Part shown: positions 875 to 35,232 of the stretch, in pieces
Layout: each line of letters starts with the position of its first letter
Numbering within the stretch: the stretch's first letter is position 1
Virus record (IMG/VR): IMGVR_UViG_3300034198_004780
Span: 1 to 64,000 of that record
DNA from: a virus
Strand: one strand, 5' to 3'
DNA: 64,000 nt
The notes under the pieces: model-generated
What the model was told of the DNA's origin: nothing
Databases searched by the model: none
What the model saw: only the letters and a program-made list of their open reading frames with translations
Made by a program: the position numbers and the translations under genes

Positions 875-3280
875 TTATCTTCTTGGTCCAAAACTTCCGC
901 CCACACCATTAATTGCTTTAACTGTATCTTCAGCAGCCTCAGCGGTGCGGGTATTAATTCTTATCAATCTTTCTATGCTGTTATTTAATAAAACAGCGTC
1001 ACTGGGCTTAGAATCCTGGCTTGTAGACGCCGCAGGCGCACTCGGAGCAGACGGAGTTGCGTCAGGCGTACTGCTTTTTTCTGTTTTTTTAGCATCAGCG
1101 GCTTGCTGTTGACGCTGTTCATCTTCACGCTTTTTAGCCGCATCTGCTTTGAACTTTTCAGCCTGCTGTTTAAGTCCAGTATCGTTTTTAAGACTGTTAA
1201 CTTGATCTTTTAGGTTTGCAGGAACATCACGGTCAGTAGCCTGCTGTGTCATTATACGATAGGCTAAATCGCTGGCTGCTTTAAAATTATCTGTTCCATT
1301 AGAGGTCACTGGCTGTCCGTCAGCTCCAACTTTGGCTGCTTTGGCATTATTTGTACCTAGAGGAGTTTCCGGAGTTTCACCTACACCCCCACTTAAATCA
1401 ACTTCGCCAGTTTGTGATACTCCCTCAACTGATCCGCCAGATTCTTTAGATGATGCTTCACCTTCAAATATGCCAAATGTTATTTTATGCATTAGTGCTT
1501 TAAACAATGCTCCGAATAAACTACTTAAACCATCAAGCAGTACAGGCTTTATGTTGTTCCACATTTCTAAAATTACAGGTTTCATCCATGTCCAAACTTT
1601 ACTAAGAGTATTTTTTACCTCTGCCCAAAATTCGTCAACGTTTTTAATCTTGGCAAAGCGGCCAATGGTTTCACTTATCCATCCAACTAATTGTGTGCCT
1701 ATCTTAACCAAAATATCAGTAAATGGTTTAATTTTTTCTATAAAATCGTCGCCGCCTACTAAGAAAGAATCAATTAATTTCATAACAGGACCAATTAGTG
1801 GCGCCAATAGACTACTGATTAGGTCGTCTATTTTTTTACCAAAGTTTTTAAGTTGCTGTTGACGACCAGCAATATCAGCTGCTTCTCCGTCTTTGGCTTT
1901 GGCTTCTTTACCACGAAGTTCCACCATTATCTTTTGATACTCTTCAAAGTTTTTAGCTTCTTTGAATCTATTTGCGTAGGCCGTAGCTTCGGCACTGGTA
2001 ATTTGTTTACCTTGAGAAGCAGCCAGTTGCGCAATGTCCCCTAATGACTCACCGGTTGCTCTAGTGTTTTGAATCATTTTCCAGTTTGCGCCATCCTGCT
2101 GTTTCAAGTATTGTGCATCAGACATGTCTTTAGTTCTAACATATTTGTTCATGTTGGCAAAATATTCATCGGAAGCACCTTGCGTAGTCAACGCAATTCG
2201 CATGCCAGCTTCATTAATAGGAGTTGTAATACCTGTTCTGATAGCAAACTTTGCCTGTTCAGCTCCGTCTTTACCAAATTTAGCCATTGCATCTGCTACT
2301 CCTGCGGTAGCTCGCTTGGCTTCTTCGGGATCAAGGCCTGCTAGAAAGGCCTGGAAGTTAGCTTCTTCTGTTGCCGCTTTAAGTTCGGCTTCTATTGTTG
2401 CTCGCTGCTTGCCGGTAATTTCGCTCAGCTGAGTTAACTGTGATGCTAGTTCTGCGGCTCCTGCGGCCATTACTTTACTGTCTTGCAATCCTGATTTACC
2501 AACGGATCCTTGTGTTCTCATAAACAGCATCATGCTGTCTGCCATTTGCTCGCCGTTAAGTCCTAACCCGCGCATAATCTTGCCAGCATCGCTGTTGACA
2601 TCATTGAGCTCTCTCATGCCTTTACCAAATACTCTCATGCCAGCATCTGTAGACCCTAGTCCCATGGACAATGTATCTCCATTTTTAGCAACTACTCTAG
2701 CAAACTCGTCCATGTTTAACCCGGTAGAGTTGATAAATCCTCGTAGTTCAGTAAGGCTTGATCCAACACCGGCTCCAACAGAACTGATTGTGCGATATAC
2801 TTCCAAATTTTCTTCTTGTCGTACTACTGATAATTTGAATATGTCAAACAACATTCCAAGTGCACCACCTACTAGTGGAACTTGTTTTGCCAGCTCTCCC
2901 ATGACTCCTACGAGATCAGATACCTTCATGTTGCCTTTGCTGACATTAACAGCAAATTCACCAAGTATGCTAGCAACGTTGCCTATCTTGCTAAACAGTC
3001 CAGATATCATTGAGCCCAGCATATTAAAAACTTTACCAGCAGCTTCAACCGCAACAGTTAGTACCGTAAAGGCAGCGCCGGCTTTGCCTAATTGAGGAAT
3101 TACCTTTGACATGCCAGCTGACATGTCATTGATAGATTTAGACGCATTAGCTGCGCCGGCAGCTCCCGAAGGTGCTCCGCTTTTTCCAAGAACAGCAGAC
3201 AGCTTTAGTAATGAAGCGTTCATTGCTTTGGCTTCGTTTAGAAGTTCTTGTAGGGTCGTTTCTGAAGCGTAGTCTGCCAT
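875..3280 (-). CDS. Tape-measure-like tail protein
   Basis: An 801-residue protein likely to set tail-tube length and sit inside the tube until ejection. It is Ala/Gly/Lys-rich and mostly helical. Hydrophobic stretches lie near residues 65-105 (AGAAFTVLTVAVEAAGKVF) and 130-150 (VPLVGGALGMLFDIF), more lie at 490-620, and there is a charged Gln/Lys/Ala-rich helix near 700-750. This matches the general architecture of myovirus tape measures; no enzymatic domain was seen. It is divergent from gp26 and upstream of the portal gene, so it is in a structural context. A TATAAATA element on its strand lies 61 bases before the start codon. T4 gp29 is the functional counterpart, but no sequence motif proves orthology. 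Confidence 0.75.
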   Translation of the reverse strand: MADYASETTLQELLNEAKAMNASLLKLSAVLGKSGAPSGAAGAANASKSINDMSAGMSKVIPQLGKAGAAFTVLTVAVEAAGKVFNMLGSMISGLFSKIGNVASILGEFAVNVSKGNMKVSDLVGVMGELAKQVPLVGGALGMLFDIFKLSVVRQEENLEVYRTISSVGAGVGSSLTELRGFINSTGLNMDEFARVVAKNGDTLSMGLGSTDAGMRVFGKGMRELNDVNSDAGKIMRGLGLNGEQMADSMMLFMRTQGSVGKSGLQDSKVMAAGAAELASQLTQLSEITGKQRATIEAELKAATEEANFQAFLAGLDPEEAKRATAGVADAMAKFGKDGAEQAKFAIRTGITTPINEAGMRIALTTQGASDEYFANMNKYVRTKDMSDAQYLKQQDGANWKMIQNTRATGESLGDIAQLAASQGKQITSAEATAYANRFKEAKNFEEYQKIMVELRGKEAKAKDGEAADIAGRQQQLKNFGKKIDDLISSLLAPLIGPVMKLIDSFLVGGDDFIEKIKPFTDILVKIGTQLVGWISETIGRFAKIKNVDEFWAEVKNTLSKVWTWMKPVILEMWNNIKPVLLDGLSSLFGALFKALMHKITFGIFEGEASSKESGGSVEGVSQTGEVDLSGGVGETPETPLGTNNAKAAKVGADGQPVTSNGTDNFKAASDLAYRIMTQQATDRDVPANLKDQVNSLKNDTGLKQQAEKFKADAAKKREDEQRQQQAADAKKTEKSSTPDATPSAPSAPAASTSQDSKPSDAVLLNNSIERLIRINTRTAEAAEDTVKAINGVGGSFGPRR

Positions 3281-3360: not shown

Positions 3361-4227
3361 ATGGCAAAAACAGCAATTAATCAAAACAATCCGTTGACAA
3401 AGTTTATGCGTCAACCAAAAATTTATATATCATTACCAAGCCAAGGGCAATACTGGCCAGCCAACGCCCTGGAAATTCCCGAAAACGGACAATTCCCAGT
3501 GTATTCAATGACTGCCAAGGATGAAATTCTATTTAAAACTCCGGACGCATTGATGAACGGACAGGCAGTTGTAGATGTAATTCAGAGCTGTGTTCCTAAT
3601 ATTAAAAATGCGTGGGCATGTCCAAGTATTGATTTAGACATGTTGTTAATTGCCATTCGTATTGCCACGTATGGCGACAAGATGAGCATAACATATAATA
3701 TTCCTGTTATCAACGAAGAATCAGACTACGAAGTCGATCTACATCGTTTCATCGATCATGCCAACTCTATTCAATGGGTTGAGCAGGTACCTATCGACGA
3801 GGACATGATTATATTTGTCAAACCCTTAAACTACAAACACATGAGTACTATTAGCCAACGTGGGTTTGAAACTAGTAAGATCATGCAGATTGCCAACGAC
3901 GACAAATTATCTGAAAATCAAAAAGCTGATATGATTCGAGCCAGTTTTAACGCACTAACCGATTTGACTACAGACATGATGGTTGGATCAATATTTAAAA
4001 TTAAAACAATCGAAGGTGATGTTACTGAAACTCGGTTTATCAAAGAGTTTATTGAAAATGCTGACCGTATTGTTGTAGATACTATTCAGAAACACATCAA
4101 TGATTTAAAAGTTCAAAACGATATTAAACCTGTGGTGTTTACCACTACTCTGGAACAACAAGAAGCAGGTGCTCCAGAAACATTTGAAGTGCCAATTAAC
4201 TTTGATAATTCTAATTTTTTCGGATAA
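3361..4227 (+). CDS. gp26: Baseplate hub/tail assembly protein gp26
   Basis: Member of the T4 gp26 family of baseplate hub proteins (T4 gp26 is 208 residues; this one is 288). The segment LMNGQAVVDVIQSCVPNI near residues 60-80 and the following RIATYGDKM are the recognisable family core. The start is ATG after GGAATTTAAACC and is preceded by a TATAAATA late promoter. The last codons AAT TTT TTC GGA TAA contain a T_TTT_TTC slippery heptamer at 4215-4221, leading into an open -1 frame. A longer fusion product is therefore likely, as with the lambda G/GT tail chaperones. The family call is confident; whether it is a virion component or a chaperone is open. Confidence 0.85.
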   Translation: MAKTAINQNNPLTKFMRQPKIYISLPSQGQYWPANALEIPENGQFPVYSMTAKDEILFKTPDALMNGQAVVDVIQSCVPNIKNAWACPSIDLDMLLIAIRIATYGDKMSITYNIPVINEESDYEVDLHRFIDHANSIQWVEQVPIDEDMIIFVKPLNYKHMSTISQRGFETSKIMQIANDDKLSENQKADMIRASFNALTDLTTDMMVGSIFKIKTIEGDVTETRFIKEFIENADRIVVDTIQKHINDLKVQNDIKPVVFTTTLEQQEAGAPETFEVPINFDNSNFFG

Positions 4228-4451
4228 GGCTTTTACTGCTAGACAGTGAAGGCATAACAAAATACATCCAGGAATTGGATGATGGAGTAAAAGCCTTAAA
4301 AGAAGAACTTTTTAGATTATGCTGGTTTATGAGAGGCGGTGTGACTCTTGAAGAAGCCTACCATATTGATGTTGCTGACCGTCAAATTATTAATAATATT
4401 ATCAAAGACAATTTGGAAACAACAAAAGAAAGCGGACTGCCTTTCTTTTAA
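4215..4451 (+). CDS. -1 frameshift extension of gp26 (G-T-like)
   Basis: The -1 frame opens exactly at the slippery heptamer (the preceding codon in that frame is TAA at 4212-4214) and stays open to TAA at 4449-4451. The new part reads RIRLLLLDSEGITKYIQELD and continues with KEELFRLCWFMRGGV, EEAYHIDVADRQI and a final SGLPFF. It has no ATG near its beginning and no ribosome binding site, but its composition is protein-like. A -1 slip on T_TTT_TTC would join residues 1-287 of gp26 to 76 new residues, giving a 363-residue protein. This mirrors the conserved frameshift in tail assembly chaperone genes of many long-tailed phages. The slip itself is inferred. Confidence 0.75.
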   Translation, partial: FFRIRLLLLDSEGITKYIQELDDGVKALKEELFRLCWFMRGGVTLEEAYHIDVADRQIINNIIKDNLETTKESGLPFF

Positions 4452-5131
4452 ATATCTATCTTTAAAAAACGACTTTCAAATTTGTAGGACTCAGCAATAC
4501 CAACTGCTTTTTCTAACGCACTAACACGCCCAACTAGTTGACTAATTTGATTGCCTCCAGGGGCGCCGCCTGCTGCACCTCCTTGCGCTACACCTGCTGA
4601 ACCACTTGCGGCCTGAGGGCCACCCACAGCAGCTTTTCCAGCTTGATAGCCTTGTTTCATTTTACCTAGTGCACCTCTAATACCGCCACCCACTGCACCA
4701 ATAGCTTTACTAACACCACCAACTGTATTTGCTAAACCAGTAACAGCACCGTTGACGCCTGCTGGTTGAGTTTGTTGTGTAGTATCAGCGGAAGCCGCAG
4801 TAGCAGGTGCGGCTTGTTGTGCTTGATCAGTTGGAACAGTTTGTGGTTGATTAGGATTAGTTGCAGCTGCTTTGTGTACCTGTCCAGCATTAGTTGGAGT
4901 AGTTGTTCCACCTGTACTACTTGGTGTAGTTGCAGGAGTAGTTACTGGAGCAGAACCGGTTACTTGATTTGCCATAGCAGCCATAGAATTGTTACCGGCT
5001 TTTTTTGCTGCATATGCTTGTGCACCTGCTTGCTTTCTAGCTAGCTCTTGAGCTTTATATTGATCAGGAGTTAATCCTGTAGAATCTAATTTTTCTTCTA
5101 TACTTTGTTCAAATAGCTGTGCAATTTTCAT
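4448..5131 (-). CDS. Low-complexity protein with possible prohead protease site
   Basis: A 227-residue protein of unrecognised function. The N-terminus MKIAQLFEQSIEEKL and the C-terminal 30 residues (SALEKAVGIAESYKFESRF) look folded or helical. The middle (residues ~55-195) is an Ala/Gly/Thr/Gln/Pro-rich linker. The ending contains IAE-S, which fits the (L/I)-x-E cleavage rule of T4 prohead protease gp21, so it could be processed during capsid maturation; this is inference. A TATAAATA box 29 bases upstream points to late expression. The 3' end overlaps the gp26 frameshift extension by four bases, convergently. Confidence 0.6.
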   Translation of the reverse strand: MKIAQLFEQSIEEKLDSTGLTPDQYKAQELARKQAGAQAYAAKKAGNNSMAAMANQVTGSAPVTTPATTPSSTGGTTTPTNAGQVHKAAATNPNQPQTVPTDQAQQAAPATAASADTTQQTQPAGVNGAVTGLANTVGGVSKAIGAVGGGIRGALGKMKQGYQAGKAAVGGPQAASGSAGVAQGGAAGGAPGGNQISQLVGRVSALEKAVGIAESYKFESRFLKIDI

Positions 5132-10660: not shown

Positions 10661-11719
10661 ATGGCCGACAATACAATTGTAACAACATCGGAAGACGCAG
10701 TAGCAACGTCTGATCCGTCTATTCAATTTTTTGACGACGGTTCCTCAATTCAATCTTTTGAAGATGGATCCACGTTAGCAACAGATGAAGAGGGCAATGT
10801 AACGTCATCTCCAGCTACAGAAGAACCAGCAGTTACAGAAGAATACACAACGGATAGTCTTGGCAATACATTTAAGAATGGATTTCTATACCGTGCTGCT
10901 GAAATAAATGATTCTATTGACGAAAGTGCAGAATACACAACTGATAGTCTTGGCAATACATTTAAGAATGGATCTCTATACCGTGCTGCTGAAGTAGATG
11001 ATACTACTGGGGAAAGTCTAAGCAGTACCACCGATAGTAGTGGACGATCAATTCCTGTTCCAAAAGGAGCACAGCCTGCTATTCCTCCAGCAGCACAGGC
11101 ACAATGGGGCCAAGCTAAAGATCTAAGAGTTAAACTTAAAGTACCTTCTGAGTATCTCAAAGGTCCAGGAGCAGGCCCTGCTAAAATACTACAAAAGAAC
11201 GGCGGAATATTATTTCCGTATACTCCTACTATATCGATGTCTAACCAAGCACGATACGCAACTCAAACACCGATGCACTCAAATTATCCTCTGTACTTTT
11301 ATCAATCCAGTTCATCAGGTCCAATTAAAGTCAGCGCAAAATTCACAGTGCAGAATGAATTTGAAGGTGCGGTATTGCTGGGAGTAATACATCTATTAAG
11401 AGGATTGACTAAAATGAAATTTGGTAACGATCCGGATGCCGGAGCACCTCCCCCTGTCTGTCGATTTGATGCCTACGGTGATTACATGTTCCACAACGTA
11501 CCGGTTGCAATATCTAGCTGGTCGCACGAGCTTCCAGACAATGTAGATTATATTGCCATTGGCCGTCCAGGTAGTCCAACAACCTATGGCCGCAGTATGG
11601 TTCCAGTAATTAGTACAATAACATTAGATCTCAATATCATGTACAGTAGACAAGAAATGTTAAATTACAATGTTAAAGATTGGATCAGCGGCGGCCTTCG
11701 ATATAAAGGATATCTATAA
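10661..11719 (+). CDS. Tail tube/baseplate structural protein (gp48/gp54-like candidate)
   Basis: A 352-residue protein and first gene of the late structural operon. The N-terminal ~145 residues are acidic, Ser/Thr-rich and repetitive, with two 30-residue repeats. The rest (from LRVKLKVPSEYL) looks like a beta-rich folded domain found in marine T4-type phages, with ILFPYTPTISMSN, FTVQNEFEGAVLLGVIHLLR, PPPVCRFDAYGDYMF and IMYSRQEM. Position directly before gp53 and a length near T4 gp48 (364) suggest a tube-cap or tube-initiator role; this is inferred from context, not from a diagnostic motif. The stop overlaps the gp53 start by one base. Confidence 0.6.
   Translation: MADNTIVTTSEDAVATSDPSIQFFDDGSSIQSFEDGSTLATDEEGNVTSSPATEEPAVTEEYTTDSLGNTFKNGFLYRAAEINDSIDESAEYTTDSLGNTFKNGSLYRAAEVDDTTGESLSSTTDSSGRSIPVPKGAQPAIPPAAQAQWGQAKDLRVKLKVPSEYLKGPGAGPAKILQKNGGILFPYTPTISMSNQARYATQTPMHSNYPLYFYQSSSSGPIKVSAKFTVQNEFEGAVLLGVIHLLRGLTKMKFGNDPDAGAPPPVCRFDAYGDYMFHNVPVAISSWSHELPDNVDYIAIGRPGSPTTYGRSMVPVISTITLDLNIMYSRQEMLNYNVKDWISGGLRYKGYL
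10840..11019 (+). repeat. Two tandem 90-base coding repeats
   Basis: Two copies of a 90-base unit begin at 10840 and 10930. They encode EYTTDSLGNTFKNG-(F/S)-LYRAAE followed by a variable acidic tail. The first ~65 bases are almost identical between copies, which points to a recent in-frame duplication in the N-terminal extension of the tail protein. Confidence 0.85.
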
Positions 11720-12018
11720 TGGATCAGTACAATAAATCAAGTCCTTACGCAGACACACAACTGACCTCGGGGTATCTTGATGTTATTAATTTTATTGATA
11801 TCCCGTCTCAGAATGATGATATTCAATTTACCATAACCTCTTTATACATGCATCGCCCAGATTTATTGGCCTACGATCTTTATGGAGATAGTCAACTATG
11901 GTGGGTATTTGCAGTTCGCAACAAAGATGTAATCCTTGATCCGTTGTACGATTTTGTACCGGGACAGGTAATATTTCTACCTAAACTAGAAACAATTAAA
12001 TTAGTTATGGGATTCTAA
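11719..12018 (+). CDS. gp53: Baseplate wedge protein gp53
   Basis: Joins the wedge (gp6/gp25) around the hub. The 99 residues contain the family signature MHRPDLLAYDLYGDSQLWWV, then NKDVILDPLYDFVPG and a C-terminal LysM-like strand IFLPKLETIK. T4 gp53 is about twice as long (196), but short forms of this core are usual in cyanophage-type relatives. The start overlaps the previous stop (TAATGG), and the next gene begins directly after the stop. Confidence 0.9.
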   Translation: MDQYNKSSPYADTQLTSGYLDVINFIDIPSQNDDIQFTITSLYMHRPDLLAYDLYGDSQLWWVFAVRNKDVILDPLYDFVPGQVIFLPKLETIKLVMGF

Positions 12019-21651: not shown

Positions 21652-24600
21652 ATGGCCGGTAAAGATATCAGCAATCCAGTAGATGTTAACAATCCTTCAA
21701 GCACTCGTAGGTCTTCAGATTTACTTCCTGGATACATACGAACAGATAGAAATTCTAAATTTTTAGCCAGTACACTAGATCAGTTTATTCAACCTCCGCA
21801 GCTGGAAAGAATTGACGGATTTGTTGGTAGCAAATTAAGTTTAAATTATAAACCTAGTAACGATCAGTATATTGCCGGTACAACTAAATTAAGAACCGAT
21901 TATCAGCTCGAGCCATCACTAATTATTAATGATGATAAGCAACAAGTAAACTATGCGTTAGGATATGATGATTTAATAAATCAATTGGCATTTAACAACG
22001 CCGATGTATCAAATTTAAATCGATTGTTTAAATCTAAATCTTATTCATACGACCCGATGATTAATTGGGACAAATTTGTAAATTTTCGTCAATACTACTG
22101 GTTGCCTACAGGTCCGGATACTATTGAAATAACCGGTCGTCAAAAATCAACAGTCAGTACCTATACAGTTTCTGATAGCCCAGTCGATGGGTCTTTAATA
22201 TTCACACCAGACGGTACATCAAATAATCCTTTATTGACATTATATAGGGGTATGACCTATGTGTTCAACGTCAACAGTGCGCATCCATTTTATATTAAGA
22301 CAGCCTATTCTCAAGGTCCTCAAGATCTATACAGTGGCGTTACAAATAATGGCACACGCAACGGGCAACTAATTCTTACTGTTGACGAATTTACTCCAAA
22401 CACTTTATTTTATTTTGCTGACGGAAATCTAGCAGGCATAGGACAATTTGTTATTAAAACAATAACAGAAAATACCACAATAGATATTGAAAACGATGTA
22501 TTAGGGAAACAGACGTATACTTCAGAAACAGGTGTTACGTTTTCTAATGGAATGAAAGTGCGATTTGTTGGTACAGTAACACCAACAGAATATTTAGATA
22601 AAGAATTTATTGTTGAAGGGGTTGGTTCTAAGATTGTATTAGTTGACTATGCTAGTTTACAACCGGTTGGTGTTGAAACTACAAATCTAGATCCAAACTT
22701 TGATGCAACACCGTTTGACCTATACCCGTTTGACAATTTTAGTTTTATTCCGTTGACGCCTGAATATGTAACAATTAATCGTGCTGCGCCAGACAAAAAT
22801 CCGTGGGCAAGATTTAATTGCTGGGTCCATGCCGATGTCATTGCGGCTACGGCCAAAGCCAACGGTGTCCAAGGTGAATATCCTACAAAACTGCGAGCAC
22901 AACGTCCTATTATTGAATTTGCCGCTGGCCTGCAATTATATAATTATGGATCTAAATCAAAGAAGACAGTTAACCTAATAGATAACATTACTACAAATGC
23001 CTTTAAAATAGTTGAAGGTGCATCGGGATTTTATGTTGACGGAGTATTGTTAGAAGCAGGGCATCGCGTAATTTTTAATGCTGATACAGATTTGCTAGTC
23101 CGTGGTAAAATATATGAAGTGAAAATCTCAATAGTTAACAATAAACAATTAATTAACCTAGAGGAAGTATTAGACAGCGAACCATCTGTATACGATGCTG
23201 TAATGACTAGCCAGGGCGTACAATATGCTGGTGTTGCTTGGTGGTTTAATGGATCCACATGGACGTATGCTCAACAAAAAACATCATTGAATCAAGCACC
23301 GCTTTTTGATTTATATGATTCTAAAGGTAATCGATATGCTGACCAGACAGTGTATCGTTCTTCTTTCGCCGGCTCTCGATTGTTTGGATATACTGTAGGC
23401 ACTGGGGTAGTAGATCCTGTTTTAGGTTTTTCATTAGACTATCGAAATGTATCTAATGTTGGAGAATATTTGTTCTCCAACTATTTTATGACTGATACAT
23501 TTACCAATTTCAATAATAATACAATTGAAGTATTAAATGTTGCCGATGGTTTTTTTAAAGTGAATCTCCCAACCGAAGAAGTTTATCGTACAGTATGGGT
23601 TAAAACAATTGATCATCCTATTCCTATTTTACAATTTCAGGTATTAGACGCTGATTCAGAATATGTTGAGATCACCTCTATTGACAGTCCTGGCTATGCA
23701 AAAGATTTAGAAGTTGAGCTATTTGTAAACGATATTAAACAAATACGAAATGTCGAGTATATAATCACAGCATCAGATCGTCGCTTGTTTGCTGTGGCTA
23801 CTGATAAGTTTTCAAGCAACGATCGAGTATTGATTAAATTATATACTGCTAGTGTGCCAACCGCTAACGGGTACTACGAACCGCCTATTAACTTAACAAA
23901 TAACCCATTAAACGGTTCAGTTAAAAACTTTACCTTTACTGAACTTAGTGATCATGTAAAGACTATTGCAGATTTTAATGACCAGTTTGCAGGTACATTT
24001 CCAGGAGCCGGAAATTTAAGAGATCTTGGAGATGTTAGCGCATACGGCTCAAGACTGGTTACGCATGACAATCCAATGAGCTTTGCTCATTATTTCTTAG
24101 GAACTCAAGAAAATAATATTGTCAACGCTGTACGAAAGGTCTCAAACGATTATAATCTATTCAAAGCTAATTTAATTAAACAGATTACTGAATTACGTGG
24201 ATTATACACTCCGTCTCAAAGTTTAGATATTGCGTTAACTGCTTTAAATCGTAATAAAGAAGAATCAGCCAGTTACGGTTATTCAGATATGCTTGCTTAT
24301 GGAAAAAATTATTCAACCAGAACTTTTACAGTTACTGATGCTCGCAACGTTCAATATAGCCTAGCTAGTATTTTTGATACTACCGTACTAAGCGAAAGAT
24401 CTGTTTTAGTTTATTTAGAAAATGTATTATTAGTTGCCGGATATGATTATATTGTTAGCCAGTACGAACCTAATATTGTTATCAAGAAAGAATTGGCAGT
24501 TGGCGATAAAATTGTTATCCTTGATTATCCTAACACAGTTGGCAGTTATGTTCCACCCACTCCTACTAAACTTGGTCTCTATCCCAAGTTTAAGCCTGCA

Positions 24601-27600
24601 ATCTATATTGACGATACGTATGCATCAGCTCCACAGCGAGTAATTCAAGGTCATGATGGCAGCATCACAGTCGCCTTTACCAGCATGGAAGAATTTGCCG
24701 CTGGACAAATTGACTATCGTGATGCGGTTATTTTAGAATATGAAACTCGAGTTTTTAATAATCTAAAAGTAAAATATAATCCTGATTTATTAGATATTAG
24801 CACAGTATTACCAGGAGCTTTTAGAGACAACTCTTACTCTCAAACTGAAGTTACTGATCTAGTAACAGCTGACTTTTTAAGATGGGCCGGATCGTTTGGA
24901 GTTGATTATCAAACCAATAATACACTTGACGAATTGAATTCGTTTACATTTAATTACACAGGATCCGTTGATACCTTACGTAAAAATTCACTAACAGGAT
25001 ATTGGAGATCGATATACAAATATTTCTATGACACTGATCGTCCCCACACACATCCGTGGGAAATGCTAGGTTTTTCAGAAGAACCAGTGTGGTGGACCAA
25101 TGTCTACGGACCAGCTCCGTATACTAGCGGTAATCTTGTGCTATGGGATGATTTAGAAGCGGGTCGAATTGTTCAAGGTGATCGTGCTGGCATTAATATT
25201 GCGTATGCTCGTCCTGGTCTAAGCAAAATAATCCCAGTTAATGAAAGCGGAGTATTATTAAGCCCTACCGATTCGGGCCTTGCTGCTACACCTATTGTTA
25301 ATCCTAATGATCCAAGACGTTTAGTGGTGTTACGCAGCGATCAAATTGCCAACAGATGGGCGGTAGGAGATCAGGGTCCTGCTGAAACTGCTTGGCGTAG
25401 AAGTAGCTATTGGCCGTTTGCTTGCCAAGTATTAATGGCATTGGCTTATCCAGCCACCTATGCCGCACAATTATTTGATACAAGTCGCATAAAGAAAAAC
25501 ATTGCAGGCCAATACAAATATGGCGATACTAAAACGTTTTTAAATCCTTCAAAGGTCTTAATTTATAGAGATGTAATAGATAGCCAGCGTGTTTTAGCAT
25601 CGGGCTACAGTGTATTTGTTATTGAAGCTGGAATTTCTAAAAATATAAATTATTTGAATTCATTAAAAGTTGATCTAACAAATTTAGATTATCGTCTAAT
25701 GGTTAAACTTGGCGGTTTTGCCAGCAAAGAAAAATTACAAGTGGGAATAGATGCTGTAGACCCAACTAGCCCATATCCCGGTGCATTAATTCCATCTGAA
25801 GACTACAACATATTCTTCAACAAAAGCAATCCTATTGAAAGTCTTGAAATCTCGGGCCTTATTATTCAAAAAACGGGCCTCGGCTATTCAATTCGAGGAT
25901 ATGACAAATATAAACCATACTTTACTATTTTAAAACCATTTGCGTCCAATCTTGATCAAATAGAGCGAGTGGGCGGACGTAGCGAATCTTATGTAACCTG
26001 GTCACAGAATACAACGTATAATATTGGACAGATAGTATTTTATACTGATAGATATTATAGAGTAACACAGCGGCATAATAGCGATGTTTCGTTTAATCTG
26101 TCATATTATCAAAGTTTACCATACCTACCAACAGTGGGCGGAGTAGGCGTTTCAAGACGCACTGCATTTGACACAAGCGAAACTGTTGTTCCATATGGTG
26201 TAGAATACAAAACAATACAAGAAGTGTACGACTTAATTGTTGGATACGGGCAATGGTTGGAATCAAAAGGATTTATATTTGAAGAATTTAATTCTACATT
26301 GGAGCAAATACTTGATTGGAAATTCACGGCTAAAGAATTCTTATATTGGACTACTCAAAACTGGGATGTAAACTCTATTATCACGTTAAGTCCGTTTGCT
26401 AATAAACTTACATTGAGATCAGATCAGGGTGTTGTTGAAAACATTATGAATGAATTCTACGAATACAGTTTATTAAAAGCCGACGGCAACATGTTTTCTA
26501 AAAATAATTTTACATTAGTAAGATTGGATGGCGAATTTTCAATTACAACAATGAATACACAAGATGGAATGTTCTTTGCTAGATTAAATTTAGTGCAAAA
26601 AGAGCATGCAGTGGTAATGAATAATTTTACCCTATTCAAAGACGTGGTGTATGCTGTAGAAACTGGCTACCGCCAACGGCGTGTTAAATTAAAAGGATTT
26701 CGAACAGCCAACTGGAATGGAGATTTTTTCAGTCCAGGATTTGTGTTTGATCAAGCAGTTGTTAGCGATTGGCAGAAGTTTGTGGATTATGGTATTGGTT
26801 CGGTGATTCGCTTCTCTGGAAAATATTATTCGGCAATTAAATCAATCATTGGATCGAGTGCCTTTGATATTACTCAGTGGGCGCCACTAAATGAAAAACC
26901 AGAAGCTCAATTATTACCAAACTTTGATTATAAGATTAATCAGTTTGAAGATTTCTATTCGTTAGACATTGACAACTTTGATGTTGGCCAACAGTCAATG
27001 GCACAACATTTAATTGGGTATACCCCGCGACCATATTTAAATTATATTATTTCTGATCCAACTGCACAGTACAAATTTTATCAAGGATTCATACGAGATA
27101 AAGGCAGTAAGAAATCTCTAACTAATCTAAGTAAAGCTAGCTTTAATAACTTCCGTAGTTCTATTGATTTTAACGAAGAATGGGCGTTCCGTATTGGCTA
27201 CTATGGTGGATACAACACATACCAAGAATTAGAAACATCGTTAGAATCTACAGGATTTATTGAGAATCCGCAGATTTTACAATTTGTTGAAAATAAACCT
27301 GTAGGTAAATCAGATACTGTTTATTACAAAGATGAAGCAGATGCAATTATTAAACCTGAAAATTTTAATATTAATTTGATATTTCCTACAATTGAAACAA
27401 CGCTAGCTGAAAATAATTTTAAATTACCAGTGGCGGGATACGTGAGATTTGATGATGTCACCTCCACCGCCTATAATAAAAACAGCATATTAGACATTGC
27501 TAATAACAGCTTGTTAAAAGTTGGAACTACCATTTGGTTAGGATTTAGAGAAGACGGTGAATGGGATGTTCTTCGATTAACTGAAGTTCCCACAATTATT

Positions 27601-30600
27601 ACTGCGGTTGCTATTAATGTTGTTGGAGAATCGTTAACAATTAGCACTTACTATCCGCATCAACAATCGGTAGGTGACTTAATTAGCATTACAAGAATAG
27701 CTAGAGATATTGATCGATGCTATGTTATTGATGAGGTACTAGGTCCAAATCAGTTTGTTGTTCGATCAACAATAAAATCAATGCCTCCGTTACCAAACAC
27801 TATAAGGGGGTTAATGTTCTCATTTGATTCTTCAAGATTAAGAACATTCGATGATCTTTCTGATATTAAATTTTTAGATCGCTGGGCACTTGGTGAAAAA
27901 GTTTGGGTAGATGATGACGGAACCGGCAAATGGGTAGTTTATAAAAAGAGTAATAACTACCAAGCAACTGTTTATAGCTCTATAATTCCTAAGTCTGGAC
28001 AACATTATGCCAGCACCATAGTAACTGATGATAAAATTGTTGACGGTAGAACAGTAACAGTGGTTGTTGCATCTGCACCTGATTTTCAAGAAATTAACTT
28101 AGATGGTGATGATCTTCGAGGCAGAGTGTTTATATCAGTTAAAGACAGTTTTGGTGAAATCCAGTCATTTAATAATTACAATCTAAACGAAGATGTAACT
28201 TATTATAGTACTGCCACAAGTAGCCTTACTAATTTTGGTCAGAGTCTAGCATTTAATGCGACAGCCAATTTAGTAGTGGCAGGCGCTCCAGCAACCTCAA
28301 ATGTCAAAACCGCACAATCTAGCAACGGCTTTATTGTTAATACCGACTCTGAAGCAATTGAGCCTTTTGCAAAACAAGGTGTAGTAAAACTTTCAGTTCT
28401 AAATGCCGGATATAGAGAAATTGACAGTGCTCGAGTAGTTATTACAACTCCAATCCCTCAAACAGGCGCGGAATTTGGAACAAGCATTGCTCTTTCGTCA
28501 ACATCGACTACAAACTTTAAATTATTAGTTGGTGCTCCGGGGCAAACAGTTAATAATGTTAGTTCTGCTGGTGCCGTTTACATATACAATGTTGTAGTTT
28601 CTACGGCAACAATAGCAGTTACTACCAGCACACAATCCGCTCTATTACAAGATTCAACGAACCCATTAATTGCTAATAGTGAATTTGGTACATCAATTTC
28701 TGGAAACGCTAGTCTAACCAGAGTTGCGGTATCTGCTCCTGGTTACTTTTCTAACAGCACTACATCAACAGGGGCTGTATTTGTTTATGATTTTGCAACC
28801 ACATCAACTCCCACTATAATTACAGGCGAGGACGCAGCTATTAAATTTGGATCAGGAGATCAATTTGGTCCTAAAGTTACAATGACCAAGGACGGCGAAT
28901 ATCTCATAGTGGCAAGCTATAATGCACTTGACCCGGATCTCGGAATACGGTCAGGGGTTGTTGATATTTTTAAATGGAATTCTGTTGCCAAGAAGTTTAA
29001 GCACCATCAACGCATCGGAGCGCCAATATCGGCAGTCAACTCAACATTTGTTTATGGCTACGATATTTCTATTAGCGAGTCCGGTGATACTCTAGTTATT
29101 TCGTCAGTTGGCAATTCTAGAACTCCGCCACCAACATTTGACAAGTATACTGAACGATACAGTACATCAACAATCCTTGCTAAGAATTTTGAATCAATTT
29201 ATGTAAATAATCTCACTTCAGATGAGCGGAATTCTCCAACAACGTTTGACAGTGGCGCAACAACATTTTCTTCTAACGTTATTAATGCAGGTACTGTGCA
29301 TGTTTATAACCGGTTAGGGACCGGTGCAACTAAATGGGCCCATGCACAAAGTCTTTACAGTTCAGATATTGTATCTAATAGCATGTTTGGCCGCTCTGTA
29401 TTTGCGACAAATAATTCAGTGTATGTCGGAGCTCCGGCCAAGTTATTAAACGGTAATGACGGAGCTAATCTTGGAATTGGACAATTGTTTTCGTTTGATA
29501 AAATTGATAATTCTATTAACAGTTGGGCACTGTATAGAAATCAAGCGCCATCGGTTGACCTTGAACCAATTACAAGAGCAATTACAATAGATTCTAATTC
29601 GGAGCAGATACAATATTATATTGATATCATTGATCCCATTAAAGGTAAAGTCTTAGGAACAGCTGCAGAAGAATTGCGATACGTGACTTCTTATGATCCT
29701 GCAATATATAGTTTAGGAATATTAGGAGTTAATGTTAATTCTAATACCAACTGGCTTGATGAACACGTTGGCGAGTTATGGTGGGATCTATCATCAGTTA
29801 AGTACGTGTGGTATGAACAAGGTGAGCTAGAGTATAGAAAAAATAACTGGAATAATATATTCCCAGGTAGTTCTATTGATGTATATGAATGGGTAAGATC
29901 AGAGTATCTTCCAGCCGAATGGAGTCAGTTAGCAGATACAGCCGACGGACTAACACAAGGAGTAAGTGGACAACCTAAGTTTGTAGATAATTCAGTTATT
30001 AGTGTAAAACAAGTTTATAACTCTGTTTCAAATGCGTTTACTAATGTTTATTACTATTGGGTTAAGAATAAGGTCACAGTACCGACTAAAGTTGCTAACC
30101 GCAATAGATCTGCATTTGATATTGCTAATCAAATTGCTGATCCATTAAGTTCTGGACTACAATTTTTAGCAGTTATTAGTCCAACGTCGGTAATGTTGGC
30201 AAATATAAAATCTGTCATTGCCTCGGAACAGATTAATCTAAATATTTCGTTTGATCTAATTAATGATTCTGCAAACCGTCACACTGAATGGTTATTGCTA
30301 GAAGAAAACAATGCCAATAGTAAACCAAACTGGTTGTTAGAAAAGAAATTAATAGATAGTTTGTTAGGACACGATTCACTGGGAAATCCAGTGCCGGACC
30401 CCACATTGCCAAACAAATTACAATATGGTATTGAAGTTCGCCCTCGTCAAAGTTTATTTGTTAATCGTCGAGAAGCGTTAAGAAACATAATTGAATTTGT
30501 TAATGACATACTCAGCAAGCAGTTAATTACGGGGCAAATTAACTTTGCTAATTTAAATGCGGTTGACGATTTACCTAATGCGTCAACGTACGATTCTATC

Positions 30601-33600
30601 GTTGAGGATATTTTTACTTTAGAATTAATATCTACGAAATCTTTAATCACAGCAGAATTACAGCCAGTTATAGATTCTAATGGAAAAATTACCAACGTAA
30701 CTATAGTAAATGCTGGATATGGTTATCTAACAACCCCAACTGTATCTATTAATGGTACTGGCTTTGGAGCAGAAATTAGCTTAACTATTAACTCGTTTGG
30801 CAGTATTACAGAAGTCAATATTATAAATGCCGGCACAAATTATACAGCAGATACAGAATTTGTTGTTCGCCCATATACCACAGTAGTACAGACAGATTCA
30901 AACTCAGCAAATAAATGGGCAGTATATGAGTGGTCCGCAAATAAATCTGAATGGATTAAAATTCGTACACAAGATTTCAATACTACTTTATTCTGGAAAT
31001 ATATCGATTGGTCTGCTACCGATTACGACCCATTAAAAGAAATTATTTCTACCGTTTCGTCTGTTTATGCTTTAGAAGCACTACAGGTATTATCCGAGGG
31101 CAGCTATGTTAAGGTTTTGAACGGCGGTGATGGCCGTTATCTAATTTTGAAAAAAACAAATGGAGCAGGCGGATCGTTTGAGCCAGATTGGGATGTTGTA
31201 TATTCCGAAAAAGGAACAATTAAATTTTTAGAAACCATCTGGAACTTATCCGGAACACTATATGCTTGGGATGAAATAGTTGGATTTGATCAAACACAAT
31301 ATGATCAAGCACCCGATAAAGAGATTGAATTTATCTTAACTGCGCTTAAAGATGATATCTTTATTAGTGATCGTAAGGTTTACTGGAATCAACTATTCTT
31401 TAAAGCAGTTCGTTATGCAATGAGCGAACAGAAGTTTCTCGATTGGGCATTTAAAACAACATTTATTAGTGTTGTTAATAATTCTGGAAGTTTGGATCAA
31501 GTAGCTACTTATAAATTAGAAAATGTCAAGTATTATGAAGATTTCTTAAAAGAAATTAAACCATACCATACTAAGATTAGAAAATTCACCGAACAATACA
31601 CTACTACAGAATTAACGAATACATTCTCAACTGACTTTGATTTACCAAGCTATTACAATACATCTACTTTAAACTTTAATAAAGTTGAATTTGGAAATAA
31701 TCTACTATTGCAATATCCGTGGAAAGCGTGGTATGACAATTATGCCTACGGTGTGTCTACCATTGAATTATATGATAGCGGAGTTGGATATACAGAAACT
31801 CCTATAGTTAACATTGTAGCCGCAGCCGGTGATACAGGACATAGTGCAACAGCGGTGGCCTTTATATCGTTAGGTAGAATTTCACGAATTATTGTTACCA
31901 ATCCTGGTAAGGGATACACAGCAACGCCAACAATATCTATTAACGGTGGCGGCAGTACTGTGCTGACTCCTGCTAGAGCTTATGCTCAATTGGGTGGCAG
32001 TCCGGTGAGATCTAATTCTATTACAATGAAGTTTGATAGAACAACAGGTAACAGAGAAATTGGTGAGCAGTACTACACAGATACATTTGTTGCGCAAGGT
32101 GAAAATTTATTGTTTAATTTAACTTGGGTACCTGTACCTAATAAAGAATTAATTGTAATAACTCGAAATGGTATACTACAATTAGATGACTCGTATACTA
32201 TATTATATAGTACAGCAAAATATAATCCTCAACCTAATACTGAATATACTAAACAATCTGCAACACTGCGTTTAGAATTTATTCCAACAACTGGTGATGT
32301 GATAAAAATTACATATCCTAAGAGTTTGAATTTATATAACGCTGCAAGTCGTATTGAAGATTATTATCAACCTGGACCAGGCATGCCTGGAAAGGATCTC
32401 TCACAATTAATGACTGGTCTAGAATATTCTGGTTTAATTGTTGACGGGCTACCATTTAACTTTGCTGGCGGCTGGGATGCAATGCCGTATGCCTCCACTG
32501 GCTGGGATAATTATGCTTTAGAAAATGGCTATACATCCTTTGTAACTACACAAACATCTACGCAAACTTTTGTTCTTCCTACATTGATTACTACGGGTAC
32601 TGAGGTTAATGTCTATGTTAAGAGCATGGGCGATTCTAAAATTAATGGTCAGAGAATTGACAGCACTTCGACAACCTCATTAGTGCAGACATTGATTGGA
32701 TTAGGAACAGGCGCTGTTGATAAGATTGAAGTATTGATCCCGGGGATCGGCTATTCAAATACATACACAACATTTTCAATCTCCGCACCAAATACTGTAG
32801 GCGGAACAAATGCCGCGGCAACTATGGTTATTAATAGCGGATCTGTTACAAGTTTCGTAATTACCAATCCTGGAAGTGGATACACTGAGCCTCCAACAGT
32901 TACTATTGTTGAATCTATTAATCCAAATAATTCAACAAGCACTATAACTCTGCCAGCTATTGCTAGAGCAGTTCTAAAAGCAGAGTTTACCGCAGTAGGT
33001 TCAACAGCAACAACATCAACTGTGACAATACCTGACGCTGCGTTTACTACAACTTCAACATTGGTGATGTTTAGATACGCTGACAGCGACGGCACGGTAT
33101 TGCCAACAGACCAAGACAGTTTAGATGCGGTAGTTAGTGGCGGTAATTTAGCCTACACTACAGCATTGGGATTATCTCCTTCAGAAATTATTCTAGACGG
33201 CGGCTCACAAGCTACTCGCAGTATTACTGGAATGATGGATGATGGATTCTTAAATAGTATTAACAGTCACGCACCAGAAGAATGTGTACCGGGACAGATT
33301 CAAGAGGCTGTAGGAATTAGCGTGTATACTCAACCATCTAGTGCCGCACCAATAATTACCAATAGAAAATATTGGGCTGACGGAACTACATTAACCTACA
33401 AGTTAGGAGTTAAACCAGCCAATGCTGATTCGGTGATTGCAATCTTTAATAATCAATTAGTTCCTTCTAATGATTATACAATTGATTATGTTAATAATAC
33501 ATTCACATTCAATTCAAACACCGTTGGAACAGGTTGGCTAAGTCTAACATCAATGCAGTTGGGTACTTTAACACTACTAGGCACGTTTAACACTAGCACC

Positions 33601-35232
33601 TCTGCAGCCAGTGCGGTCTATACATCAGTGGTAAAATTTGCCGATGTAGGCAGTGTTTATGTTACAGTAAATGGGATCTCAACAACTAATTATACATTAA
33701 GTAGCTACCGTCGTCGTGCAAGATTAACAATTAACGAGCCAGGAACTATTCAGGCGTATTTGTTTAATGGAGTAGAAAAATCGTTCAGTGAAGTAACGGA
33801 TCAAATAATAGTAACAACGTCGACAACTTCTACATTTGTCCTAAGTCAACCTCCAGGTAAAGTAGAACCATTTCATAGTCAAGTAATTGTAACTAAAAAT
33901 GGATTAAGATTGCAACCTCCAGTTACTACCTATTATAAAGTTTCTAATTCTCAATCAGTTTATGATATAAGTCAGTCTATTGTATATCCTGCAGGTTTGA
34001 TCGATTTACAGCGAATTGAAGTTTATGTTAACGGCGCAAAAATACCAGTTGGACAAGATTGGAATCTTGATCAAGGTGCGGGCCAGATTATTTTTAATAA
34101 TAGTGTTATTTTTGATAATGACGTAATAGCAATCGTAGTTAAGCAAGAAAACGATTATCTAATCGAAAATAACAAATTAATTTTAATCAACGCTGTACCA
34201 ACCGGAACCAAGATAGAAATCACTACATTTACCAATCACGATCCTAATTTTATAAGAACAGAAACATTCAAAGGAGCAGTCAGCAACCAATACACAATGC
34301 AACGTCCTATATTAGATTCTGCGTATGTATGGGCATCCTATAATGGAGAACCATTAATTGTCAATCTAGACTACACTATTGATATTGATAATCGAACTGT
34401 TGTTTTAAGAAATGGCCTGTATCAAGGTCCAGATGATATTGCGGTAATAACAAGTTTTGCAGATATATCGGCAAAAGAACTAATTGCCTATAGAATCTTT
34501 AAAGACATGCTAGGCCGCACTCATTACAAACGATTAAGCGCACAAAATTCTACAGAGTTGGTTCAAGATTTAACAATGACTGCAACATCAATTACGGTTC
34601 AAGACAGCAGCGTTTTAACTAAACCTGATCCATTACATAATCTTCCAGGCATAGTGTTGATTGACGGTGAAAGAATAGAATTCTTTACAATTGTAGGCAA
34701 CACATTAGGACAACTTCGCAGAAGCACATTAGGTACAGCACCTAAGAATATTTACACAGCAGGAACTCCTGTAATTGATCAAGGAACGCATCAAACAGTG
34801 CCGTTCAAAGAAACTGTGGTTAAATACACCACTGCTACAACTACTGTAACAAATGCGTATTCGTTGTTGGATTCGATTAAATTTGATCCTAGTGTAGCAT
34901 ATAGTGATCAAGTAGAAGTCCGCTATCAGGGTCGTCCGTTGTTAAAACCTGGCCTTAATACAACCGAACATCAAATTGAATTGGGCTACGACTCTACATC
35001 AACGACTACAGTTGATGTTCCTGTTCCTTATGGATTTACAATTTCATCAACAAGCAGCGTATTAACACTCAACTTTACTCCGGTTGAAGGGGCACGATTA
35101 GAGGTTATAAAACGCACATCTAGGTCTTGGTATAATGTCCCACAGACATTATTAGAAAATACCACAGATCAAGCTAAATTTTTACTAGAAAGGCCGGCCA
35201 CGTTGCCAGATAAATATCGTTATGGACAATAA
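21652..35232 (+). CDS. Giant 4526-residue baseplate/fibre protein with propeller and repeats
   Basis: One open frame covering 21% of the window, two bases after gp6. The N-terminus (DLLPGYIRTDRNSKFLASTL, LERIDGFVGSK) matches the start of very large structural proteins behind gp6 in marine T4-type phages. Seen in order: a cupredoxin-like beta domain at residues ~179-270; an FG-GAP-type beta-propeller at ~2180-2620 (FGQSLAF, FGTSIAL, FGTSISG, FGPKVTM, YGYDISI, FGRSVFA); three groups of G-x-GY-x2-xP beta repeats at ~3000-3080, ~3365-3450 and ~3685-3785; and near the C-terminus IDGERIEFFTIVGNTLGQL and RRSTLGT. No enzyme motif was recognised. It takes the gp7 place of T4, probably linking baseplate and fibres and contacting the host; the role is inferred. 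Confidence 0.7.
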   Translation: MAGKDISNPVDVNNPSSTRRSSDLLPGYIRTDRNSKFLASTLDQFIQPPQLERIDGFVGSKLSLNYKPSNDQYIAGTTKLRTDYQLEPSLIINDDKQQVNYALGYDDLINQLAFNNADVSNLNRLFKSKSYSYDPMINWDKFVNFRQYYWLPTGPDTIEITGRQKSTVSTYTVSDSPVDGSLIFTPDGTSNNPLLTLYRGMTYVFNVNSAHPFYIKTAYSQGPQDLYSGVTNNGTRNGQLILTVDEFTPNTLFYFADGNLAGIGQFVIKTITENTTIDIENDVLGKQTYTSETGVTFSNGMKVRFVGTVTPTEYLDKEFIVEGVGSKIVLVDYASLQPVGVETTNLDPNFDATPFDLYPFDNFSFIPLTPEYVTINRAAPDKNPWARFNCWVHADVIAATAKANGVQGEYPTKLRAQRPIIEFAAGLQLYNYGSKSKKTVNLIDNITTNAFKIVEGASGFYVDGVLLEAGHRVIFNADTDLLVRGKIYEVKISIVNNKQLINLEEVLDSEPSVYDAVMTSQGVQYAGVAWWFNGSTWTYAQQKTSLNQAPLFDLYDSKGNRYADQTVYRSSFAGSRLFGYTVGTGVVDPVLGFSLDYRNVSNVGEYLFSNYFMTDTFTNFNNNTIEVLNVADGFFKVNLPTEEVYRTVWVKTIDHPIPILQFQVLDADSEYVEITSIDSPGYAKDLEVELFVNDIKQIRNVEYIITASDRRLFAVATDKFSSNDRVLIKLYTASVPTANGYYEPPINLTNNPLNGSVKNFTFTELSDHVKTIADFNDQFAGTFPGAGNLRDLGDVSAYGSRLVTHDNPMSFAHYFLGTQENNIVNAVRKVSNDYNLFKANLIKQITELRGLYTPSQSLDIALTALNRNKEESASYGYSDMLAYGKNYSTRTFTVTDARNVQYSLASIFDTTVLSERSVLVYLENVLLVAGYDYIVSQYEPNIVIKKELAVGDKIVILDYPNTVGSYVPPTPTKLGLYPKFKPAIYIDDTYASAPQRVIQGHDGSITVAFTSMEEFAAGQIDYRDAVILEYETRVFNNLKVKYNPDLLDISTVLPGAFRDNSYSQTEVTDLVTADFLRWAGSFGVDYQTNNTLDELNSFTFNYTGSVDTLRKNSLTGYWRSIYKYFYDTDRPHTHPWEMLGFSEEPVWWTNVYGPAPYTSGNLVLWDDLEAGRIVQGDRAGINIAYARPGLSKIIPVNESGVLLSPTDSGLAATPIVNPNDPRRLVVLRSDQIANRWAVGDQGPAETAWRRSSYWPFACQVLMALAYPATYAAQLFDTSRIKKNIAGQYKYGDTKTFLNPSKVLIYRDVIDSQRVLASGYSVFVIEAGISKNINYLNSLKVDLTNLDYRLMVKLGGFASKEKLQVGIDAVDPTSPYPGALIPSEDYNIFFNKSNPIESLEISGLIIQKTGLGYSIRGYDKYKPYFTILKPFASNLDQIERVGGRSESYVTWSQNTTYNIGQIVFYTDRYYRVTQRHNSDVSFNLSYYQSLPYLPTVGGVGVSRRTAFDTSETVVPYGVEYKTIQEVYDLIVGYGQWLESKGFIFEEFNSTLEQILDWKFTAKEFLYWTTQNWDVNSIITLSPFANKLTLRSDQGVVENIMNEFYEYSLLKADGNMFSKNNFTLVRLDGEFSITTMNTQDGMFFARLNLVQKEHAVVMNNFTLFKDVVYAVETGYRQRRVKLKGFRTANWNGDFFSPGFVFDQAVVSDWQKFVDYGIGSVIRFSGKYYSAIKSIIGSSAFDITQWAPLNEKPEAQLLPNFDYKINQFEDFYSLDIDNFDVGQQSMAQHLIGYTPRPYLNYIISDPTAQYKFYQGFIRDKGSKKSLTNLSKASFNNFRSSIDFNEEWAFRIGYYGGYNTYQELETSLESTGFIENPQILQFVENKPVGKSDTVYYKDEADAIIKPENFNINLIFPTIETTLAENNFKLPVAGYVRFDDVTSTAYNKNSILDIANNSLLKVGTTIWLGFREDGEWDVLRLTEVPTIITAVAINVVGESLTISTYYPHQQSVGDLISITRIARDIDRCYVIDEVLGPNQFVVRSTIKSMPPLPNTIRGLMFSFDSSRLRTFDDLSDIKFLDRWALGEKVWVDDDGTGKWVVYKKSNNYQATVYSSIIPKSGQHYASTIVTDDKIVDGRTVTVVVASAPDFQEINLDGDDLRGRVFISVKDSFGEIQSFNNYNLNEDVTYYSTATSSLTNFGQSLAFNATANLVVAGAPATSNVKTAQSSNGFIVNTDSEAIEPFAKQGVVKLSVLNAGYREIDSARVVITTPIPQTGAEFGTSIALSSTSTTNFKLLVGAPGQTVNNVSSAGAVYIYNVVVSTATIAVTTSTQSALLQDSTNPLIANSEFGTSISGNASLTRVAVSAPGYFSNSTTSTGAVFVYDFATTSTPTIITGEDAAIKFGSGDQFGPKVTMTKDGEYLIVASYNALDPDLGIRSGVVDIFKWNSVAKKFKHHQRIGAPISAVNSTFVYGYDISISESGDTLVISSVGNSRTPPPTFDKYTERYSTSTILAKNFESIYVNNLTSDERNSPTTFDSGATTFSSNVINAGTVHVYNRLGTGATKWAHAQSLYSSDIVSNSMFGRSVFATNNSVYVGAPAKLLNGNDGANLGIGQLFSFDKIDNSINSWALYRNQAPSVDLEPITRAITIDSNSEQIQYYIDIIDPIKGKVLGTAAEELRYVTSYDPAIYSLGILGVNVNSNTNWLDEHVGELWWDLSSVKYVWYEQGELEYRKNNWNNIFPGSSIDVYEWVRSEYLPAEWSQLADTADGLTQGVSGQPKFVDNSVISVKQVYNSVSNAFTNVYYYWVKNKVTVPTKVANRNRSAFDIANQIADPLSSGLQFLAVISPTSVMLANIKSVIASEQINLNISFDLINDSANRHTEWLLLEENNANSKPNWLLEKKLIDSLLGHDSLGNPVPDPTLPNKLQYGIEVRPRQSLFVNRREALRNIIEFVNDILSKQLITGQINFANLNAVDDLPNASTYDSIVEDIFTLELISTKSLITAELQPVIDSNGKITNVTIVNAGYGYLTTPTVSINGTGFGAEISLTINSFGSITEVNIINAGTNYTADTEFVVRPYTTVVQTDSNSANKWAVYEWSANKSEWIKIRTQDFNTTLFWKYIDWSATDYDPLKEIISTVSSVYALEALQVLSEGSYVKVLNGGDGRYLILKKTNGAGGSFEPDWDVVYSEKGTIKFLETIWNLSGTLYAWDEIVGFDQTQYDQAPDKEIEFILTALKDDIFISDRKVYWNQLFFKAVRYAMSEQKFLDWAFKTTFISVVNNSGSLDQVATYKLENVKYYEDFLKEIKPYHTKIRKFTEQYTTTELTNTFSTDFDLPSYYNTSTLNFNKVEFGNNLLLQYPWKAWYDNYAYGVSTIELYDSGVGYTETPIVNIVAAAGDTGHSATAVAFISLGRISRIIVTNPGKGYTATPTISINGGGSTVLTPARAYAQLGGSPVRSNSITMKFDRTTGNREIGEQYYTDTFVAQGENLLFNLTWVPVPNKELIVITRNGILQLDDSYTILYSTAKYNPQPNTEYTKQSATLRLEFIPTTGDVIKITYPKSLNLYNAASRIEDYYQPGPGMPGKDLSQLMTGLEYSGLIVDGLPFNFAGGWDAMPYASTGWDNYALENGYTSFVTTQTSTQTFVLPTLITTGTEVNVYVKSMGDSKINGQRIDSTSTTSLVQTLIGLGTGAVDKIEVLIPGIGYSNTYTTFSISAPNTVGGTNAAATMVINSGSVTSFVITNPGSGYTEPPTVTIVESINPNNSTSTITLPAIARAVLKAEFTAVGSTATTSTVTIPDAAFTTTSTLVMFRYADSDGTVLPTDQDSLDAVVSGGNLAYTTALGLSPSEIILDGGSQATRSITGMMDDGFLNSINSHAPEECVPGQIQEAVGISVYTQPSSAAPIITNRKYWADGTTLTYKLGVKPANADSVIAIFNNQLVPSNDYTIDYVNNTFTFNSNTVGTGWLSLTSMQLGTLTLLGTFNTSTSAASAVYTSVVKFADVGSVYVTVNGISTTNYTLSSYRRRARLTINEPGTIQAYLFNGVEKSFSEVTDQIIVTTSTTSTFVLSQPPGKVEPFHSQVIVTKNGLRLQPPVTTYYKVSNSQSVYDISQSIVYPAGLIDLQRIEVYVNGAKIPVGQDWNLDQGAGQIIFNNSVIFDNDVIAIVVKQENDYLIENNKLILINAVPTGTKIEITTFTNHDPNFIRTETFKGAVSNQYTMQRPILDSAYVWASYNGEPLIVNLDYTIDIDNRTVVLRNGLYQGPDDIAVITSFADISAKELIAYRIFKDMLGRTHYKRLSAQNSTELVQDLTMTATSITVQDSSVLTKPDPLHNLPGIVLIDGERIEFFTIVGNTLGQLRRSTLGTAPKNIYTAGTPVIDQGTHQTVPFKETVVKYTTATTTVTNAYSLLDSIKFDPSVAYSDQVEVRYQGRPLLKPGLNTTEHQIELGYDSTSTTTVDVPVPYGFTISSTSSVLTLNFTPVEGARLEVIKRTSRSWYNVPQTLLENTTDQAKFLLERPATLPDKYRYGQ

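Follow-up and report, generated by a model that had tools for sequence, protein, structure and literature searches.

The locus analyzed here raises the question of whether a single gp26-like gene gives rise to two proteins through a programmed -1 frameshift at its 3' end, in the way known for the tail chaperones G and GT of phage lambda. The gene lies in the window, i.e., the whole stretch of 64,000 nucleotides taken from the IMG/VR virus record IMGVR_UViG_3300034198_004780, and its features are collected in Table 1. The gp26 reading frame ends with AAT TTT TTC GGA TAA, so that the heptamer T_TTT_TTC is in phase, and the position assigned to it by the initial annotation agreed with our reading of the sequence. 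The -1 frame is closed by a TAA at 4212-4214 and its open stretch starts at the heptamer. A -1 slip at TTC would join 287 gp26 residues to 76 new residues in a fusion of 363 aa; the opening of the frame, the number of new codons and the length of the fusion had all been given correctly. A 227-aa ORF rich in A, G, T and Q (4448-5131, minus strand) converges on the -1 extension with a 4 nt overlap at the stops, and no homologue of it was found in the fetched relatives.

Table 1. Positions in the window of the gp26-like gene, its putative frameshift signals and the divergent neighbour.
Feature	Position	Strand	Remark
gp26-like gene, putative short tail-assembly chaperone (TAC-N)	3361-4227	+	288 aa zero-frame product
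Slippery heptamer T_TTT_TTC	4215-4221	+	read from sequence
Zero-frame stop TAA of the gp26-like gene	4225-4227	+	inside the 5' arm of the stem
-1 frame extension, putative TAC-C of the long form	4215-4451	+	76 new codons from 4221
Probable stimulatory stem, 5' arm	4225-4237	+	3 nt after the heptamer, 6 nt to the G-C core
Probable stimulatory stem, 3' arm	4286-4298	+	pairs with 4225-4237
Candidate tape measure protein, 801 aa	875-3280	-	same divergent position in relatives

Across 20 ORFs of the window, with 14,839 codon positions in total, 73 in-phase heptamers of the form X_XXY_YYZ were counted, two of them TTTTTTC. The heptamer by itself is weak evidence. An open -1 run of 76 codons was obtained with p ~0.003 in Markov simulations. 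Judged by the sequences, the frameshift site is not a product of chance, because both the heptamer and the -1 peptide are conserved across relatives, and this conservation is decisive.

Searching IMG/VR with the window protein identified 34 loci of 40-56% identity, all of which (34/34) carried TTTTTTC at the same place. The search pattern of this first scan overlapped the NFF residues, and the result was therefore open to ascertainment bias. Because one search peptide overlapped the heptamer site, the scan was repeated with an internal search motif near residue 50, far from the heptamer, and the alignment then comprised 80 loci, of which 72 were distinct and scorable; the two scans share some contigs. 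TTTTTTC was again present in every distinct evaluable relative (72/72), and an ascertainment artefact could be rejected as the source of the conservation. The alignment of related gp26 loci, which the initial annotation had proposed as a check, thus recovered both the heptamer and the -1 peptide in every evaluable close relative. Counted from the heptamer, the -1 ORF was 78 codons long in 70 of the 72 sequences and 77 or 79 codons in the other two. The base preceding TTT TTC was always T, although across the first 32 sequences the codon that it closes specified eight different residues (N, T, S, D, H, A, Y or R). Among the relatives of the first scan the -1 peptides were 46-61% identical, and divergence at the three codon positions of the -1 frame (0.39/0.22/0.55) was that of coding sequence. 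The same heptamer followed by a homologous -1 peptide was also found in eight jumbo-phage records, namely Atu_ph07, Phosso, Vibrio 2.275.O, PA5oct, 121Q, RaK2, BF and XaC1. From this distribution, the heptamer of the window almost certainly constitutes a functional -1 frameshift site. In most gp26 proteins of the window sub-clade two CxxC pairs, one at about residue 115 and one just before the C-terminal FF, are missing, and among the compared loci (L001-L043) both pairs are kept in the sister clades L024-L031 and in most of L036-L043. It is possible that a zinc ribbon was lost in the window lineage.

The most probable of the alternatives, although still an improbable one, is that the extension forms a small gene of its own, on which ribosomes would reinitiate at a TTG or ATG after terminating nearby at the end of gp26. 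In the -1 frame of many relatives, codon 7 is indeed TTG or an ATG falls within codons 4-14. None of the examined jumbo-phage records annotates a frameshift at this locus; they list a separate small CDS or nothing instead, and a separate CDS for the extension appears in those of 121Q, BF, XaC1, Phosso and Vibrio 2.275.O. However, these starts are missing from the window, in which codon 7 is TTA and a TTG first appears at codon 21. In L029 the earliest in-frame start is codon 36, and the first 45 codons of PA5oct contain none. Most candidate starts are also without a Shine-Dalgarno match. The initial annotation had described the extension as having neither a start codon nor a binding site. The absence of a Shine-Dalgarno sequence held, but that of a start did not, since in the window extension codon 21 is TTG and codon 39 is ATG, both of them deep within the conserved peptide. 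A separate gene would moreover not explain an invariant heptamer, and peptide conservation begins at the heptamer itself, upstream of any candidate start, with a conserved RxRLL peptide directly after it. The separate-gene reading was rejected on the lack of starts and on the conservation running from the heptamer onward.

Downstream of the heptamer the window can form a stem of 13 bp (-24.3 kcal/mol, z -4.3), and none of 200 shuffled sequences folded as well. In 26 sequences aligned over a 17-pair helix, 84.8% of the cells were paired, compared with 27-55% when the partner was slid, and 39 cells were changed on both sides of the helix, i.e., by compensatory changes. Extending the comparison to 89 gap-free sequences gave 76.9% paired cells versus 29-55% in the slid controls, with the full 8-bp core formed by 73 of the 89. 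Both arms are coding, and the control for this consisted of shuffling synonymous codons with the peptide kept. The window stem was reached in none of 400 such shuffles, by which an origin of the stem as a by-product of the encoded peptide was rejected. The in-register core was missing from 16 sequences. Seven of these (L142, L159, L160, L171, L175, L177 and L180) used the same 5' arm with a partner located elsewhere (p<0.01 in codon-preserving shuffles), and three others (L164, L169 and L126) had a relocated partner for this arm at p 0.01-0.03. Without selection on the stem as such, this relocation of the partner would be difficult to account for; together with the covariation, it argues for a stem maintained by selection.

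A significant stem was absent in L011, L134, L151, L156, L174 and L181, and most members of the RaK2/121Q/PA5oct group likewise had none. As the stem is missing in some members, it is not strictly required. Its position just behind the heptamer suggests that, where present, it probably stimulates the frameshift. A more speculative and rather doubtful proposal is that the long-loop stem, with its 5' arm fixed at the zero-frame stop, its 3' arm ~60 nt further on and a shifted partner in several sub-lineages, represents an undescribed and evolutionarily mobile stimulator of T4-type chaperone genes, whose strength would be adjusted to how much long chaperone the tape measure of each lineage requires.

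The stem and the phase of the heptamer also bear on whether the fusion could be made by transcriptional rather than ribosomal slippage. The slippery site consists of consecutive T, and in HTVC008M this run reaches eight T. In nearly all members, however, it consists of six, and six T is short for efficient slippage of RNA polymerase. The invariant in-phase T_TTT_TTC, followed by a stem at about the ribosomal spacing, fits slippage of the ribosome, and a transcriptional origin is very improbable. A chance or decayed feature, in which one gene was broken in two by misassembly or by a recently acquired frameshift mutation, hardly deserves consideration. In-phase heptamers are by no means rare in a genome this rich in A+T (see the above count), but this reading is refuted by the conservation of the same junction in ~100 contigs and 16 named phage genomes, and codon-preserving shuffles do not yield the stem.

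The window gp26 protein matched PF12322 (E 1e-8, 35.5 bits against a cut-off of 24.5) and phrog_150, annotated as 'baseplate hub' (E 8e-13). Both T4 gp26 and T4 gp51 belong to these two families. On the phrog_150 profile of 282 positions, T4 gp26 spans 14-235 and T4 gp51 spans 13-280, and therefore gp51 comprises a gp26-type domain plus a C-terminal extension. An hhalign comparison of the clade extension with the extensions of T4-like phages, including that of T4 gp51, gave E 4e-6 and a probability of 87% over just 34 columns. The window-clade extension thus seems to resemble the C-terminus of T4 gp51; the match is modest and is supported by the identical gene position. The short form, modelled with AlphaFold (pLDDT 86), matched 'Baseplate hub assembly protein, bacteriophage T4-like' with TM 0.83 and E 1e-22, this fold match being to predicted T4-like baseplate hub assembly proteins. 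The gp26 model had no fold match in the PDB at E<=0.001, and a BFVD fold search with a model of the extension returned nothing useful. The gp26 model also matched uncharacterised proteins of ~490-550 aa from the jumbo phages RP12, RSF1, Special G and Eowyn (E 1e-4 to 3e-6, TM ~0.5), which may possibly be distant chaperones.

Whole genomes were searched with phrog_150 and phrog_634. The C-terminal part of phrog_150 matched a second frame beside gp26 in S-PM2, P-SSM2, HTVC008M, phiM12 and Aeh1, while phrog_634 matched beside gp26 in KVP40, phiW-14 and P10VF. As in the window, gp26 of these eight phages ends in a heptamer, and the -1 frame encodes a homologous extension. Their in-phase heptamers were TTTTTTC, TTTTTTT (HTVC008M and phiM12) or TTTTTTG (P10VF). 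Their extensions are only ~60 residues long, whereas the window has 76 new codons. P-SSM2 and S-PM2 display short-loop hairpins downstream of the site, in contrast to the long-loop stem of the window, and no significant downstream structure was detected in HTVC008M or P10VF.

T4 itself is organized differently. As predicted for the window locus, it has a short form and a long form with a C-terminal extension, gp26 and gp51 being members of the same family, but these are encoded by two separate, divergent genes and not by one gene with a heptamer. A location of T4 gene 51 downstream of gene 26 was considered and rejected, as the two are divergent in T4. Other differences from T4 are the strong divergence of the extension in the window clade and the long-range stem downstream. 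One phrog_150 gene was detected in each of the eight jumbo-phage records and two in T4. The window record, which covers only 88.7 kb, contains one. CP220 (FN667788) carries separate long and short family genes at 2343-3035 and 11158-11790, and the two-gene arrangement of T4 and CP220 may have arisen more than once. These counts agree with the expectation that a frameshifting genome carries a single family gene and a genome without the frameshift carries two. The proposal that the gp26 family is the T4-type equivalent of G/GT was supported by the T4 proteins, which belong to one family and differ by the C-terminal extension, and by the second-frame extensions in several T4-like phages.

The neighbouring gene had been described as a divergent tape measure gene. 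Its divergent position was confirmed, and in relatives the homologues are likewise divergent and found at the equivalent place, their open frames measuring 718-1142 aa. Its identity is likely, and it rests on the counterpart in L011, the window protein having no family match in Pfam or PHROGs. The L011 protein matched the tape-measure family phrog_58 (E 3e-16) and also phrog_167, being the only copy with a strong tape-measure match; a further match was to the family that includes the neighbours in 121Q and RaK2. The window neighbour is treated here as the likely tape measure gene. The candidate tape measure of L011 (474-3899, minus strand) has an open frame of 1142 aa, compared with 718-967 aa in the other intact relatives of the first scan. 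L011 is also the sole relative of that scan without the stem, so that the longest candidate tape measure coincides with a missing stem in this single case. Elsewhere in the window, a single ORF of 4526 aa (21652-35232) is located within a baseplate gene cluster.

The lambda gpG/gpGT pair follows the same logic as proposed here, a -1 frameshift at the 3' end of the gene producing a rare, C-terminally extended tail chaperone (PMC5009743). The neighbouring gene is downstream of lambda G/GT but divergent in the window, and no link to the lambda G/GT proteins was found by sequence in Pfam or PHROGs or by fold in the PDB (E<=0.001). The window locus is therefore an analogue of lambda G/GT in its logic only, and not a homologue by the searches made. 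Both the programmed -1 frameshift and the G/GT-like reading are well supported by the comparative sequence evidence. The gene, a member of the tail-assembly chaperone family of T4-superfamily phages, very probably makes a short and a long tail-assembly chaperone form through a -1 slip that the stem probably aids, and the identification of the two products as short and long tail-assembly chaperones is itself quite likely to be correct.

We infer that slippage occurs at this site and that its rate leaves the extended product in the minority. Most ribosomes would terminate at 4225 and release the 288-aa short form, the putative equivalent of T4 gp26 (TAC-N). A minority would be held by the stem 3-6 nt downstream and would slip back by one base on U_UUU_UUC, both tRNA-Phe re-pairing with UUU during the slip. 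The slipped ribosomes would produce the 363-aa long form, the putative equivalent of T4 gp51 (TAC-NC). If lambda G/GT is taken as the model, the tape measure protein would be coated by the domain common to both forms, and recruitment of the tube protein would fall to the C-terminal domain carried by the rare long form.

A frameshifted TAC gene in T4-like phages is of a kind that has already been published, and the window locus adds a new case. The abstract of the 2022 study by Vladimirov and co-workers reportedly names T4 genes 26 and 51 and describes frameshifting as conserved in several T4-like groups. In the PRFect paper (PMC10885494), Vladimirov, Gautam and Davidson 2022 (Virology 566:9-15) are cited for frameshifting T4-like TAC genes, some phages having separate short and long genes. 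PMC12846349 likewise cites Vladimirov et al. (2022) for poly-T slippery sequences in the TAC-N genes of T4-like phages. An older statement has T4 as the exception to an otherwise widespread conservation of the G-T frameshift (PMC5009743). Among the open papers searched, none dealt with the stem or with cases from RaK2/Atu_ph07-like jumbo phages; as this search covered open papers only, it is weak evidence for novelty. With this analysis the published idea comes to cover numerous uncultivated phages as well as the jumbo isolates in which the heptamer and its -1 peptide were found (Atu_ph07, Phosso, 121Q, RaK2, PA5oct, BF, XaC1 and Vibrio 2.275.O). As the stem covaries, the mechanism would be directly testable with a short reporter.
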